From the IMG/VR virus record IMGVR_UViG_3300046376_000109, positions 1 to 43,334 of that record: a stretch of DNA of 43,334 nt, one strand, 5' to 3'. Origin of the DNA: a virus. Of the stretch, positions 13,415 through 43,334 are shown in pieces. The translations under genes and the position numbers were made by a program. Under the pieces are notes generated by a model that was given only the letters and a program-made list of their open reading frames with translations, was not told the DNA's origin and made no database searches. Every line of letters begins with the position of its first letter. Within the stretch, counting starts at the first letter, position 1.

Positions 13415-16306
13415 ATGAGCACCGCACCATACGACGCGCGCGCCGCCGCCCACCAATGGCGCGTCGCCGGCTGCACCACCATCCCCATCCGACCCGACCG
13501 GTCCAAGGCCCCCGCCGCGGAACGGTGGCGCGACCTCTACCCCGCCCCCGCGGTCGTCGACACCGACCACCTGTTCGCCACCGCCGTGCAGCAGCACGGA
13601 ACACAGGTCGGCGTCGCCGTCCTCACCGGCACGTCCAGCGGCGGGCTCGAGCTGCTCGAAATCGAAGGCCCACCGCAGCAGGCGGCCGCGCTCATGCGGC
13701 AGCTCGGCGACCTCGCCGGCCGGGCCGGGCTCGGCGAACTGTGGCAGCGGCTCGCCGGCGGCTACGTCGAAAGCTCACCGAAAGGCGGTGTCCACTTCCT
13801 CTACCGCCTCACCGACGGGCCCGTACCCGGGAACACGAAACTCGCCCGCCGGCCCGCCCTCGACGTCGAGCTCAACGACGCCGAACGCCGGCACGTCGAA
13901 CGCCGCCCCGGACACATCTTCGGCCGCACCACCATCGAAACCCGCGGACAGGGCGGGTACGTCATCGTCGCCCCGACCCCCGCCGAATGTTCCGGCGCCG
14001 ACGGGCCCGCACAGCCCTGGTCATTCCTCGCCGGACAGCCGCACACCATCCCCGCCATCACCAGCGCGGAACGCGGCGAGCTGCACAACCTCGCCCGTGC
14101 GTGCGACACCATGCCCGGGAAAGACGACGCCGGCGCCGAAGTTGGCCAGCAGCTCCGCATGCCCCTGCCGCAGCACACCGCCGGCGACACCCGGCCCGGG
14201 GACCGCTACGCCGCCGAAACCCCGTGGGCGAACATCCTGCAGCCCCACGGGTGGCGCCGCCTGTGGGAGAACGGCGGGAAAACGTACTGGTGCCGGCCCG
14301 GCAAAAGCCACGGGGTGTCGGCGACGACCACCGACACCGGCCCCGGCGACCCCGGCGGCATGTGGGTGTTCAGCTCGAGCACCACATTCGACACCGAGAC
14401 GCTGTACACCAAATTCGGCGCCTATGCGCACCTCGAACACGGCGGCGACATGGTAGCCGCGGCCCGGGCCCTCGCCGGCGTCGGCACCGAAAACGTCGTC
14501 CCGCTCCGGCCACTTCCGGGCCCGGCGGCCGGGGCTTCCCCACACCCGGCCCCCGGACCCGCAGCAGGGCCCGCGTCGCCCGCGAAAACGACTCCAGACC
14601 CGCCGGCAGCGCTACCGGCTGCCGCACCAGCCCCGGGGGTCGTAGGGCCGGACGGCGGGCCCATCGTATCCGCCCCACCCGTCGACCGGCGCCCCACATG
14701 GCTCGGCCGCACCGGCGCCGAACTGACCGCCGTCCTCGACGGAACGTGGCAGCAGCCCCGCGCCGAGCTGCTCCCCGTCAACGGCGGACACGGACTCCTC
14801 TACCGCGGCCGCACCCACTCGTTCTACGGCGAAAGCGGCTCCGGCAAAAGCATGGTCGCGCAAGCCGAATGCGCGCGCATCCTCCGCGACACCCTCGAGC
14901 GCGTCGCCTACGTCGACTACGAATCCGACATGCCCACCGTCGTCCGCCGACTCTTCGCCATGGGCGCCCCCCGGGAAAAGATCGAGAACGGGCTCATCTA
15001 CATCAAGCCCGAATTGACGCCCTACGCCATTGGCGAAGCCGAAACATTCCAAATGCTACTTGGCACACCACTGGCGCTCGTCGTCATCGACGGTGTCACC
15101 GACGCGCTCATGTACGAGCAGATGAAATTCGGCGGCCCCGGCATCGACCAAAACACACTCGTCACCGGATGGGCCCGCCGCGTCCTCGACCCCATCGCCC
15201 AATACACCGGCGCCGCCGTCGTCACCATCGACCACGTAACAAAGAACTCCGAGGGAAAGACCGCATTCGCCATTGGTGCACAGGCGAAACGTTCCGTGCT
15301 CTCCGGCGCCGCCTACGCCGTCGAAGTCTGGGATAAGCAGAAACTCGGCCGCGGCAAGATCGGCCGCGTGTCGCTCCGGCCGACCAAGGACCGCGACGGC
15401 GGCATCGAAATCGTGACGAGCCCGTCCGGGGCGACCGAGCTCGCCGCGATCGTCACGTTCGATTCCCTCGCCGACGACGGGACGATCGGCGTCACCGTCG
15501 ACCGGCCGACGTTCAACAGCGGGGAATCGAACAGGCCCGGGCTGACGCCGTTCACCGCCGGCGGGGAAGCAAGGAAGCAAGCGGACCGCGACGGCGCGCT
15601 CATGGCCGAGATCTGCGTCGCCCTCGCCGGCATCCCCGGACAGGTCGCGCTGAGCGTCGTCGACCTCGCCGAGCGGATGGGTTGGCCGAACACCGACGGG
15701 AGCCGCGGCACCGAGCTTCGCCGGGCCCTCGACCGCCTCGCGTTCGGCGGTCACATCGTCCGGACCAAGGGCGCGCGCAACTCGGTCAATATCCATCTGA
15801 AAGAGACGTACCGGTATCAGCCGGACGGCGACAGTCCGAGTCCGTCCGAGTCCGTCCTGGACGGACTGCCGGACGGACTCGGACGGACTGACGGACACAC
15901 AACCTCGAGTCCGTCCGTCAGTCCGTCCGACGGGCCCTACGTAGTAGAGGGCCGTCGGACGGACGGACGGACTGACGGAGTGTCGGCAAGATCAACAAAA
16001 CTGACTGACGACACAGCAACCGCCGCCCCCGCTTCCTCGCCCACCGATACCCATGAGGCCACAACCCCGACACTGGCCGCCGCCGAGCCCGACGAGCAAC
16101 CCGCGACCCCCATCGCCCCGCCCGTCTTCCTCGCCCCCGCCGCGCCCCTCGCCGCCGCCCCCTCGAGCCCCCCGGGACGCCTCACCCGACGACGCCCCGA
16201 CGAAGTGCTCTGCCCCTGCGGCGAAGCCGTCGATCCCGGACTCGTCGCCCAAGACCCCGACCGGCCCCGCCACTTCGGATGCGAGGACCGCGAATGGCCG
16301 ACCTGA
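13415..16306 (+). CDS. Primase/polymerase-helicase fusion (replication initiator)
   Basis: A 963-residue protein. Residues about 1-285 look like a bifunctional primase-polymerase (prim-pol) domain (TTIPIRPDRSKAP near residue 22, GVAVLTGTSSGGLELLEIEG, ESSPKGGVHFLYR). Residues about 425-700 are a RecA/RepA-type helicase ATPase: Walker A GESGSGKS near 472-479, YVDYESD, Walker B LALVVIDGVTD near 550-560, and TIDHVTK. A predicted winged-helix segment follows (about 720-800, VVDLAERMGWP). Residues about 806-853 are low-complexity because the DNA there is an iteron array, and a Pro/Ala-rich tail ends with a zinc-like CPCG...CEDR. It would prime and unwind DNA at the phage origin. Domain calls are strong; initiator role is inferred from the internal iterons. 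Confidence 0.85.
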   Translation: MSTAPYDARAAAHQWRVAGCTTIPIRPDRSKAPAAERWRDLYPAPAVVDTDHLFATAVQQHGTQVGVAVLTGTSSGGLELLEIEGPPQQAAALMRQLGDLAGRAGLGELWQRLAGGYVESSPKGGVHFLYRLTDGPVPGNTKLARRPALDVELNDAERRHVERRPGHIFGRTTIETRGQGGYVIVAPTPAECSGADGPAQPWSFLAGQPHTIPAITSAERGELHNLARACDTMPGKDDAGAEVGQQLRMPLPQHTAGDTRPGDRYAAETPWANILQPHGWRRLWENGGKTYWCRPGKSHGVSATTTDTGPGDPGGMWVFSSSTTFDTETLYTKFGAYAHLEHGGDMVAAARALAGVGTENVVPLRPLPGPAAGASPHPAPGPAAGPASPAKTTPDPPAALPAAAPAPGVVGPDGGPIVSAPPVDRRPTWLGRTGAELTAVLDGTWQQPRAELLPVNGGHGLLYRGRTHSFYGESGSGKSMVAQAECARILRDTLERVAYVDYESDMPTVVRRLFAMGAPREKIENGLIYIKPELTPYAIGEAETFQMLLGTPLALVVIDGVTDALMYEQMKFGGPGIDQNTLVTGWARRVLDPIAQYTGAAVVTIDHVTKNSEGKTAFAIGAQAKRSVLSGAAYAVEVWDKQKLGRGKIGRVSLRPTKDRDGGIEIVTSPSGATELAAIVTFDSLADDGTIGVTVDRPTFNSGESNRPGLTPFTAGGEARKQADRDGALMAEICVALAGIPGQVALSVVDLAERMGWPNTDGSRGTELRRALDRLAFGGHIVRTKGARNSVNIHLKETYRYQPDGDSPSPSESVLDGLPDGLGRTDGHTTSSPSVSPSDGPYVVEGRRTDGRTDGVSARSTKLTDDTATAAPASSPTDTHEATTPTLAAAEPDEQPATPIAPPVFLAPAAPLAAAPSSPPGRLTRRRPDEVLCPCGEAVDPGLVAQDPDRPRHFGCEDREWPT
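15832..15978. repeat. Iteron and inverted-repeat cluster, candidate replication origin
   Basis: About ten copies of the octamer GTCCGTCC (or its complement GGACGGAC) lie in 150 bases, at 15840, 15850, 15859, 15871, 15881, 15909, 15921, and three overlapping at 15957-15972. Bases 15839-15857 and 15871-15889 form a perfect 19-bp inverted repeat with a 13-base loop. Bases 15921-15937 and 15949-15964 form a second dyad with one bulged base. A less GC-rich stretch follows (about 15985-16020), a possible unwinding element. The placement inside the initiator gene recalls the lambda O gene and its origin. Confidence 0.7.
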
Positions 16307-16620
16307 GATCGAACACGCCATGCCGAAACGAACCATGCCCGCTCTGCTCGATTTGGCTACTCGTCGGGCTCGTCGACGGCGCCCGAACCGCCGTCGACGC
16401 CCGACCCGTCACCGACCGAGCCGAACGGCTCTACCGGCTCGCCGGCGTCGGCGCCTACCGACTCGAACACGGCGCCCTGCACTGGGCACCCCAATACCGA
16501 CCCGGCACCGCCGTCTTTCCCCGCCACCGATGCGGGAAAGCACCACCCCGCGGAATGCTCGCCCCCGACCCGACCCCAAAACCGCGGCCGCCCACATTCG
16601 AGGGCGAATACCCATTCTGA
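16294..16620 (+). CDS. Small hypothetical protein with N-terminal Cys cluster
   Basis: A 108-residue protein, ATG 16294, overlapping the end of the primase gene by 13 bases in another frame. The N-terminus has three Cys (CRNEPCPLC) followed by a hydrophobic patch (SIWLLVGLVDGA). The C-terminus is Pro/Arg-rich. It reads like a small accessory of the replication block; function unknown. Confidence 0.65.
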   Translation: MADLRSNTPCRNEPCPLCSIWLLVGLVDGARTAVDARPVTDRAERLYRLAGVGAYRLEHGALHWAPQYRPGTAVFPRHRCGKAPPRGMLAPDPTPKPRPPTFEGEYPF

Positions 16621-18042: not shown

Positions 18043-18543
18043 ATGGGTGGCAAGGTCCCGGCGCCGGCCGCGTTGCGGCTGCTGACCGGCCGCAGCCCGG
18101 GCCGGGATTCCGGCGACCGGATCGTCGAGCAGCCGCCGCCGTTCAAGCGCGGCGGTGTTGAGGTCCCGGTCGAGGTCGAGTCGGACCCGCGCGCCCTCGA
18201 GATTTGGAACGACACGCTGCCCGAGCTCGAGCGGCTCGACATCGTCAAGCCCGAGGACCGCGGCGCGTTCGCGAATTACTGCTTGACGACGGCGGCCCTG
18301 TTCCGCGCGCACGTCGAGTGGCGGAAGCTCGGGTGGCCGATGACGGGGAAGACGTCGCAGGGCGAGTCGGTGCACCCGCTCGTCCGGGTCGTTGCCGAGC
18401 TGTCGGGCCGGCAGATCCGGTCCGCTGAGCAGTTCGGGTTGACGCCGGCGGCCGAGTCGAAGCTCGGCGACTGGTCGACGCGCGGGCAGGCGAAACCGGC
18501 CGCGGCCGCGGCCGGTGACAGCCCGTTCGCCGGTACCGGCTGA
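18043..18543 (+). CDS. Small terminase subunit (P27-like)
   Basis: A 166-residue protein from ATG 18043. Its core (ALEIWNDTLPELERLDIVKPED, AFANYCLTTAALFRAHVEWRKLG, HPLVRVVAELSGRQIRSAEQFGLTPAA) matches the pattern of P27-family small terminases, with the typical end ...FGLTPAAESKL. Small terminase recognises viral DNA at the packaging site and delivers it to the large subunit. Position directly before the large terminase agrees. The ATG region lacks a strong Shine-Dalgarno, so coupling to the previous gene is likely. Confidence 0.88.
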   Translation: MGGKVPAPAALRLLTGRSPGRDSGDRIVEQPPPFKRGGVEVPVEVESDPRALEIWNDTLPELERLDIVKPEDRGAFANYCLTTAALFRAHVEWRKLGWPMTGKTSQGESVHPLVRVVAELSGRQIRSAEQFGLTPAAESKLGDWSTRGQAKPAAAAAGDSPFAGTG

Positions 18544-18553
18544 CCGTCGCCGA

Positions 18554-18582
18554 TTGGGTCGGACGCTTCCCGGCCGTACCCT
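18554..18582 (+). promoter_or_regulatory. Candidate promoter before the large terminase
   Basis: TTGGGT (18554-18559), a 17-base spacer and TACCCT (18577-18582, TAnnnT) would start transcription about 7 bases later, at the ATG at 18590, giving a leaderless message. The arrangement mirrors that before 17427. It may be a secondary late promoter or a chance match. Confidence 0.4.
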
Positions 18583-18583
18583 G

Positions 18584-20422
18584 ATGACCATGACGACGGA
18601 AGGCGCGACCCGACCGCGCCCGACGCGGACCCCCCGAACCCGGCCGCGGGTCAGCGGGTCCCGGCTGCTCGGGGTCAACGACGAGCAGCTCGCCGAGCTC
18701 AAACTCTCGCGCGAGGTCGCCTGGTATCTGGTGTCCCGCGGGCACAAGCTGCCCGAGCGGTGGCAGCGGCCGCGGTGGAAGACGCCCGAGCCGGGCGAGG
18801 TCGACAAGACGGCGATCTTCGATCCTGAGCGCGTCGACCGGGTCGTCAAGGCGTTCACGCACCTCCGGCACACGAAGGGTCAGTGGGCCGGCCGGGCGTT
18901 GACCCCGGACGTGTGGCAGATCGCCTACATCCTGGCGCCGGTGTTCGGTTGGGTGGCACCGAACGCGGACCGCCGCGACGAGTCCGAGCCCGAGCTGTTG
19001 CGGATCATCCGCAACTTGTACGTCGAGGTGCCGCGGAAGAACGGCAAATCGACGCTGCTCGGCGGGCTCGGCATCTACATGTCGTGCGCCGACGGCGAGC
19101 AGGGCGCGGAATGCGTGACCGGGGCGACGACGAAAGAGCAGGCCGGGTTCGTGTTTGACCCGGTCCGGCAGCTCGCCTCGAGCTCGCCGGCGTTGAAGCC
19201 GTTCGTGCGGCCGCTGAAGTCCCGGATCGTGCACAAGCCGTCCGGCTCGTACTTCCAAGCAATCTCGTCGGTCGCCGAGGGCCAGCACGGCGCGAACCTG
19301 CACTTCGGGTGCATCGACGAGCTGCACGTCCACAAGACGCCGGACCTTGTCGAGGCGATCGAGACGGGGACCGGGTCGCGGCTGCAGTCGCTTATCTGCC
19401 TGATCACGACCGCCGACGACGGCAAGCCGGACACGATCTACGTCATGCGCCGGAACCGAATCACCGGGCTCGCGCAGCGCTTGTTCATCGACGCGTCGAC
19501 GTACGGCGTCATCTGGGCGGCCGCCGAATCCGAAGACGAGCTGCGGCAGCTCGGCGTCGACCCGTTCTCCGTCGAGGCGCACCGGCTCGCGAACCCGGGG
19601 TTCGGGGTGTCGCCGACCCGGGCGTACCTCGCCGGCGCGGCGAGGAAAGCGCAGCAGTCCCCGGCCGAACTGTCCGGGTATCTGCGGCTGCACCTTGGGA
19701 TCCGCACCAAGCAGTCGGTGACGTACCTGTCCCTCGACGCGTGGGACCGGAACATGGGGCTCGTCGACGAGCTCGGGCTGCGCGGCCGGGTCGCCTATGG
19801 CGGGCTCGACCTCGCGTCGACGTCGGACCTCACCGCCTACTGTCTGGTTTTCCCCGCCGACGACGGTTCGTTCGACGCGCTGTGGCGGTTTTGGCTGCCC
19901 GAGCGGGCGTACGACAAACTCGTCAAGCGGACATCGAAAATGGCTGAGGTGTGGCGGCGCGAGGGCCGGATCATCGTCACCGACGGCGATGTCGTCGACG
20001 ACGAGCGGGTCGTTGCCGACATCCTCAAAACGAACGGACAGTTCAAGATCGCCGAGGTCGGCTACGACCCGTGGAACGCGTCGGCGATCACGAACGCGCT
20101 GAGCAAGCAGCGGGTGCCGCTCGTCGAGGTCCGGCAAGGGTTCGCGTCGCTGTCGCCGCCGCTGAAGGAAGTGCACCGGCTGCTGCTCGCCGGCCGGCCT
20201 GAGAAACCGATGCTTCGGCACGGCGGTCAGCCGGTCGCCCGATGGTGCGTCGGCAACCTCTCCGTCGTGATGGACGAGAACGGCAACGTCAAGCCGGACC
20301 GGAAACGGTCGGCGGACAAGATCGACGGTGTCGCGGCCCTTACGATCGCGATGCAACGTGCAATGACCCGGACCGCACCGCGGAAATCGGCTTACGAAGA
20401 TCGAGGGGTTGAGGTGGTCTAA
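18584..20422 (+). CDS. Large terminase subunit
   Basis: A 612-residue ATPase-nuclease that drives DNA packaging. The ATPase has Walker A in EVPRKNGKSTLLGG (about residue 150), Walker B FGCIDELH (about 242) and a coupling motif LITTADDG. The nuclease half has acidic strands GGLDLASTSDLT (about 405-415), VGYDPWNA (about 492) and KIDGVAALTIAM (about 578), as in Terminase_1-type enzymes. Start at ATG 18584, with ATG 18590 two codons on as an alternative that fits the leaderless promoter. It overlaps the next start by one base (TAATG). Confidence 0.95.
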   Translation: MTMTTEGATRPRPTRTPRTRPRVSGSRLLGVNDEQLAELKLSREVAWYLVSRGHKLPERWQRPRWKTPEPGEVDKTAIFDPERVDRVVKAFTHLRHTKGQWAGRALTPDVWQIAYILAPVFGWVAPNADRRDESEPELLRIIRNLYVEVPRKNGKSTLLGGLGIYMSCADGEQGAECVTGATTKEQAGFVFDPVRQLASSSPALKPFVRPLKSRIVHKPSGSYFQAISSVAEGQHGANLHFGCIDELHVHKTPDLVEAIETGTGSRLQSLICLITTADDGKPDTIYVMRRNRITGLAQRLFIDASTYGVIWAAAESEDELRQLGVDPFSVEAHRLANPGFGVSPTRAYLAGAARKAQQSPAELSGYLRLHLGIRTKQSVTYLSLDAWDRNMGLVDELGLRGRVAYGGLDLASTSDLTAYCLVFPADDGSFDALWRFWLPERAYDKLVKRTSKMAEVWRREGRIIVTDGDVVDDERVVADILKTNGQFKIAEVGYDPWNASAITNALSKQRVPLVEVRQGFASLSPPLKEVHRLLLAGRPEKPMLRHGGQPVARWCVGNLSVVMDENGNVKPDRKRSADKIDGVAALTIAMQRAMTRTAPRKSAYEDRGVEVV

Positions 20423-43122: not shown

Positions 43123-43334
43123 ATGATCGACACCATCCTCGAGTGGTTCGCCGCCCTCCCCGGGCAGCTCGCCACCATCGCCGGACAGGTCACCGCCGTC
43201 ACCCCGACGTGGGTCCTCGTGACCCTCTTCGCCGTCGGCGCCGTCCTGTTCCTCGCCGGCGCCGCCGGGATCATCCTCAAGCGCCGCACCCGGCGTCCCG
43301 CCCGCGTCGACCCCGCCCCGGCGCCCCGGACCCG
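43123..43334 (+). CDS. Membrane-anchored small protein, 5' part (continues at base 1)
   Basis: ATG 43123 begins a 134-residue protein whose 3' part is at 1-320 once the circle is closed. N-terminus amphipathic (IDTILEWFAALPGQLATIAGQV), then a single hydrophobic span from about residue 29 (TWVLVTLFAVGAVLFLAGAA) and a basic stop-transfer (KRRTRR). It is the first gene of a unit that carries on through the helix-turn-helix gene at 321. Confidence 0.85.
   Translation, partial: MIDTILEWFAALPGQLATIAGQVTAVTPTWVLVTLFAVGAVLFLAGAAGIILKRRTRRPARVDPAPAPRT
43208..43334. repeat. Right copy of 127-bp terminal identity
   Basis: Identical to 1-127; see that entry. It is the overlap used to close the circle. 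Confidence 0.95.

Follow-up and report, generated by a model that had tools for sequence, protein, structure and literature searches.

The replication origin of this virus very probably lies at the 3' end of its own putative initiator gene, in an array of short repeats directly 3' of the part that encodes a predicted winged helix. This prediction draws on the repeats and their hairpin, on their position at the 3' end of the gene, on the recurrence of this layout with different words, and on the co-variation between word and winged helix. A candidate origin had been put forward here in a first-pass annotation of the DNA; it is the best reading of our data too. Relatives show the layout again, likewise where their helicase gene ends.

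A primase-helicase gene in a whole virus record

The window, by which we mean the whole stretch of DNA analysed, comprises a virus record in full (43,334 bp). It carries an exact 127-bp direct terminal repeat (1-127 = 43208-43334) as would be expected of a complete genome, circular or terminally redundant, although assemblers often use a k-mer of 127 as well. A GC content of about 71% and the best protein matches suggest an actinobacterial host. The gene call at 13415-16306 is correct, and its product carries Prim-Pol (Pfam, 5e-8) and AAA_25 (7e-8) domains. The winged helix is taken from an AlphaFold2 model with a mean pLDDT of 84.7, the input for which left out rows from phage and plasmid records; in the numbering of the model its elements are helices H290-311, H321-327 and H336-350 and strands E354-358 and E364-368. 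Whole-protein searches found no relatives in the genome contig collection and a sole relative among viral contigs (L003), with which only the primase half is shared. The features of the region, in window coordinates, are as follows.

13415-16306, plus strand: putative initiator gene with Prim-Pol, AAA_25 RecA-type helicase and winged helix, running through the array into a Pro/Ala-rich tail (Pfam, translation)
13439-13984, plus strand: Prim-Pol domain, residues 9-190 (Pfam)
14789-15250, plus strand: AAA_25/RecA-fold ATPase core, residues 459-612 (Pfam; fold matches to KaiC and RecA)
15563-15799, plus strand: predicted C-terminal winged helix, proposed reader of the iterons (AlphaFold2 model)
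15834-15980, no strand: iteron array, with partial copies in addition to ten GGACGGAC/GTCCGTCC octamers that face both ways (repeat searches)
15839-15889, no strand: perfect 19-bp dyad with a 13-nt loop (inverted-repeat search)
15913-15972, no strand: long hairpin, inverted iterons around a core (hairpin search, folding)
15935-15951, minus strand: hairpin core, CCCTCTACTACGTAGGG on the minus and CCCTACGTAGTAGAGGG on the plus strand, GTA triloop at 15941-15943; common to L016 and L037/L053
15986-16015, no strand: AT-rich flank, possible unwinding element (57% AT)

Iterons and dyads directly 3' of the winged-helix coding part

The first-pass annotation had counted about ten octamers, and exactly ten copies of GGACGGAC/GTCCGTCC lie within 15840-15972, starting at 15840, 15850, 15909 and 15921 on the minus strand and at 15859, 15871, 15881, 15957, 15961 and 15965 on the plus strand. 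The true span of the array is 15834-15980, followed by the AT-rich flank up to about 16015, the 15986-16015 part of which stands at the 99.8th percentile of genome 30-mers for AT. What is unusual is the clustering of the octamers and not their number across the window: the maximum count of any 8-mer per 150 bp is 10 at the array versus 3-5 in 30 shuffled genomes, whereas the octamer total over the whole window (13 versus 7.9 expected) is less striking. When the genome was scanned for repeats in both orientations, the array ranked top with a score of 131, the next cluster scoring 66 and the highest shuffle 37. No GC-skew turn, which had been suggested as a check, is visible at 15832-15978, and skew therefore lends the site no support.

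The perfect 19-bp inverted repeat with a 13-base loop that had been described was recovered at 15839-15857 and 15871-15889, as was a second dyad of 28 nt at 89% (15909-15936 and 15949-15976); there is an additional perfect 18-bp inverted pair at 15879-15896 and 15913-15930. These dyads are not independent features, because iterons in opposite orientations produce dyads. Folded as single-stranded DNA, the array reaches -67.5 kcal/mol versus -35.6 +/- 3.3 in shuffles (z = -9.8). A (GGAC)n tetranucleotide microsatellite that expanded by chance or mutation in a GC-rich genome could be invoked for such an array, and the words are indeed tetramer-periodic in places (15957-15972). However, the two orientations, the perfect dyads and the fold z-score argue against expansion, as does the recurrence at the same place of unrelated words in the cross-lineage survey described below, and we regard it as highly improbable.

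The coding signal changes where the array begins. GC at codon positions 1, 2 and 3 is 0.66, 0.51 and 0.87 in the 630 bp upstream of the array and 0.70, 0.64 and 0.68 within it. Since this codon-position bias, strong until 15830, is gone in the repeats, the protein-coding signal is lost in the array; the peptide encoded there is of low complexity, in keeping with the earlier view that the DNA rather than the protein seems to be under selection. In most relatives a comparable array sits 3' of the helicase stop codon, while in the window, plasmid pKRAD02, L185 and Dagobah it falls wholly or partly within the 3' coding end. Given the position after the stop in most relatives and the loss of coding bias, the reading frame across the candidate origin looks incidental, or at least tolerated.

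The hairpin and its core

In the predicted fold, the CTAC-GTA-GTAG core of the window hairpin closes with a GNA triloop, a type of loop that gives unusually stable DNA mini-hairpins when it sits on a G-C stem (PMC4686876). A 17-nt core of the form CCCTCTACTNCGTAGGG, with N variable, is seen at 15935-15951 in the window, at 2299-2315 in L016 and at 2836-2852 in L053 (the contig of L037, read along the strand of the helicase gene); these are three very different primase-helicase loci, and the core occurs in either orientation, that of L016 being inverted relative to the window and L053. The L016 core, CCCTCTACTTCGTAGGG, is nearly the same as that of the window and is located shortly 3' of the helicase stop. 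At the triloop position the matching strand reads GAA in L016 and GGA in L037. Searching the whole collection for CCCTACGNAGTAGAGGG gave 13 matches, most of them within unrelated coding-like sequence and near the level of chance, and iterons surround the core only in L016, L037 and L040. In the last two, GTGGGCA iterons flank a core of the window type beside a BT4734-like/AAA_25 primase-helicase.

Hairpins are common at the surveyed loci, the best one exceeding every shuffle in 39 of 50. Usually there is one hairpin, with inverted iterons as the outer stem; its core, described partly by eye, typically runs from a C-rich arm through a loop that ends in TA to a G-rich arm, as in CCCCTATAGGGG and CCCCTCTTATAGGGG. 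We hypothesise that such a structured single-strand core serves as a site of helicase entry or as an ssi-like priming site. The position at a gene end and the strong, GC-rich stems would also suit a transcription terminator of the replication operon, with the repeats as by-products. However, no T-run was found 3' of the survey hairpins, a terminator scan at the window hairpin found none, and the array is within a reading frame in the window, pKRAD02 and L185. As a terminator would moreover leave unexplained both the iterons in two orientations and their match with the winged helix, we consider this very unlikely.

The same layout in other helicase loci

A DNA-only pattern, GTCCGTCC-GTCCGTCC-GGACGGAC, searched for in IMG/VR with no protein information, was found in 27 contigs, and in most of these, which represent few lineages, the repeats lie 3' of a large ORF. 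Four scanned representatives (L004, L008, L012 and L027) are AAA_25 helicases, L016 is a DnaB-N/RecA-type helicase resembling the window ATPase, and L009 is VapE-like. In L009, GTCCGTCCC repeats at 13728-13758 lie just 3' of the VapE-like helicase, suggesting that the layout extends beyond RecA-type helicases.

Two further surveys, of AAA_25 (RecA-type) helicases, relied on protein alignments only, A2 with 80 loci in 17 clusters and A3 with 59 loci in 25 usable clusters; a third alignment, A1, was very diverse and held no stretch conserved enough for use as a search query. With five shuffles, the top repeat cluster was significant and at the helicase 3' end in 12 of the 17 A2 clusters and 17 of the 25 A3 clusters. 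Under a stricter test with ten shuffles the counts were 11 and 16, that is 27 of 42 versus 5.6 expected if clusters are placed randomly within each locus (P = 2.6e-16). The iteron word differs from lineage to lineage, and the words that recur at this same 3' place are unrelated and mostly non-periodic.

The first-pass annotation had named, as the finding that would count against it, relatives in which the protein linker is kept and the repeats are lost. We looked for these among the relatives and saw the opposite: iterons and a hairpin are retained where the helicase gene ends, while nothing of the linker peptide or of the iteron sequence stays the same. In the closest Prim-Pol relative, L003, with 51% across the primase half, the words are different ones (ATTCCGG), and a CCCCTATAAGGGG hairpin is found close to the stop. 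The primase part also varies under a constant layout, being Prim-Pol, BT4734-like, a DnaB N-domain or no recognised primase domain, and the layout is still present in RootBeer, whose helicase is of the Prim-Pol/D5_N type. The AT-rich flank, in turn, was no significant general feature across relatives. Among the words themselves, CTCGTCC(C) or a near copy appears in L138, L140, L141, L046 and L151, the ATPases of which are often only about 40% identical, suggesting module exchange or convergence.

Named phages and plasmids show the same arrangement. The records found with P0001 were scanned either whole or as long stretches. Their strongest repeat cluster falls at the end of the primase-helicase gene (3') in Dagobah (ACCGGTT), MinS1 (CCTCGTCC), a circular Streptomyces element (GCAGGGA), P8625 (TATCGGCA), plasmid p-XQ-29-C (GGCAGGT) and plasmid pKRAD02 (GGTTCCC; scanned whole). 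In RootBeer it lies about 280 bp downstream of the primase-helicase gene (TGTCACT), and in Hendrix the cluster at the 3' end is weak. An array at this position is absent from the relatives KimJongPhill (L047), Dulem virus 38 (L052), L100, L135 and L188, which presumably have their origins at another site. In KimJongPhill, a CAGAACG cluster is located about 1 kb upstream of the primase-helicase gene.

Partition and packaging sites are also made of repeats, and the array might be a centromere or a pac/cos site. However, it adjoins the helicase gene and not partition or terminase genes (the window terminase gene is at 18515-20422), and the layout is found on plasmids as well as phages, pKRAD02 and p-XQ-29-C being plasmids without packaging genes among their annotated features; a partition or packaging role thus seems most unlikely. 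Alternatively, the array could be a regulatory site, with replication starting elsewhere: it might be a locus for incompatibility or copy control, or act as an operator to which the winged helix, or some other regulator, binds. Iterons often control copy number too, and the next gene (16279) is close to the array. Against this, most relatives have the array where the helicase gene ends and not at its promoter, a scan for promoters of the sigma-70 types found no such site near it, and regulation would leave the single hairpin core unexplained. We therefore consider regulation in place of initiation unlikely, albeit the least improbable of the alternatives, and continue to favour an origin.

Co-variation of iteron words and winged helices

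In a set of 50 loci, the similarity between iterons goes with winged-helix identity (r = 0.41) more closely than with ATPase identity (r = 0.30). With ATPase identity and GC fixed, the partial (Mantel) correlation of iteron with winged helix is 0.285 (p = 0.0003), and inside the A3 family it is 0.276 (p = 0.0007). The reverse partial correlation, of iteron with ATPase given winged helix and GC, is 0.055 overall (p = 0.053) and 0.245 in the non-A3 set (p = 0.001). These comparisons of sequences moderately support the winged helix as the probable reader of the iteron words, and part of the correlation could stem from inheritance of the whole 3' module.

Comparison with known systems and a model for initiation

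The first-pass annotation saw in this site the design of the lambda O gene. In lambda, however, the O protein is no helicase and the iterons lie mid-gene, between the parts that encode its domains. The likeness holds in that iterons lie inside an initiator gene; it fails in that the array here follows the last domain, that an AAA_25 helicase is present, and that in relatives the array is usually outside the gene. By analogy, SaPI/SCCmec, P4, pRN1 and RSF1010 appear closer.

The C-terminal domain of SaPI Rep is reported to recognise iterons directly downstream of its own gene, and binding of SCCmec Cch2 to direct repeats downstream of its gene has been shown; inverted repeats lie nearby in these origins (PMC7581432). 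Similarly, the iterons in our relatives are directly 3' of the helicase gene, and in the window they are within its extended 3' coding end. In contrast, Cch2 represents a different type of initiator helicase, with 3'-to-5' polarity, whereas the domains assigned here are a RecA-fold AAA_25 helicase fused to Prim-Pol. In pRN1 a stem-loop 3' of the gene for an AEP primase-helicase-winged-helix protein is required for replication, and a similar 3' stem-loop has been proposed for phage BIP-1 (PMC4234260). The window shares with pRN1 the primase, helicase and C-terminal winged helix and the stem-loop at the gene 3' end (in the window, within the 3' coding end). However, pRN1 has an SF3 helicase and a large stem-loop without iterons, with no specific binding detected (PMC4234260), whereas the helicase here is AAA_25/RecA-fold and iterons form the stem.

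The oriV of RSF1010 (IncQ) combines iterons and ssi hairpin priming sites with a ring helicase and a dedicated primase (PMC4234260). There, RepA, RepB' and RepC are three separate proteins, while here a single polypeptide would carry its own predicted reader. RSF1010 RepA and solved RepA structures were absent among the sequence matches and the 50 best fold matches (a Pfam AAA_25 match is present), and no RepC-like counterpart was found among the part of the window proteins searched. In phage P4, the alpha protein is likewise a primase-helicase, and its winged helix binds repeats of the origin (PMC4234260); its primase is of the Toprim type, unlike that of the window, and the likeness is one of description. 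The window would appear to combine the iterons of SaPI/SCCmec/P4, the 3' stem-loop of pRN1 and the iterons and ssi hairpins of RSF1010 with a RecA-type helicase. We found no paper in the open-access literature that describes this layout for RecA-type phage primase-helicases.

Our model, in which binding, loading, melting, priming and origin function itself are what we infer from the layout, is as follows. First, winged helices would bind the GGACGGAC iterons in both orientations and so nucleate helicase rings around the hairpin core. The dyad would then extrude, or the AT-rich flank at 15986-16015 would melt, allowing the helicase to be loaded on single strands. The tethered Prim-Pol could make the first primers, perhaps at the CTAC-GTA-GTAG hairpin in the manner of RepB' at the RSF1010 ssi sites. 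Finally, forks would depart from the site.

Beyond this virus, we tentatively propose, at slightly less than even chances, a widespread and undescribed class of origins in phages and plasmids with RecA-type primase-helicases. In such a class the protein's own winged helix would read a lineage-specific iteron, one hairpin with a conserved core (C-rich, TA, G-rich) would serve for helicase entry or priming, typically at the 3' end of the gene, and word and reader would co-evolve. Were this true, word and reader would evolve together, and replication specificity and incompatibility could therefore be predicted from sequence. For most environmental phages, to our knowledge, the replication origin is unknown, and if it could be expected wherever an AAA_25 primase-helicase gene ends, many uncultured viruses and cryptic plasmids would gain an origin that can be tested. 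Furthermore, pairs of winged helix and iteron word form a natural set for learning how such proteins recognise DNA, and the recurrence of the hairpin core points to a common priming or loading site that could be assayed with one purified protein.

Two minor observations concern the sequence beyond the array. The end of the helicase ORF is a Cys-containing tail (CPCG...GCED), possibly a fused neighbour, and small, often Cys-rich proteins are encoded after the array in the window (16279-16620), L016, L031 and L045.
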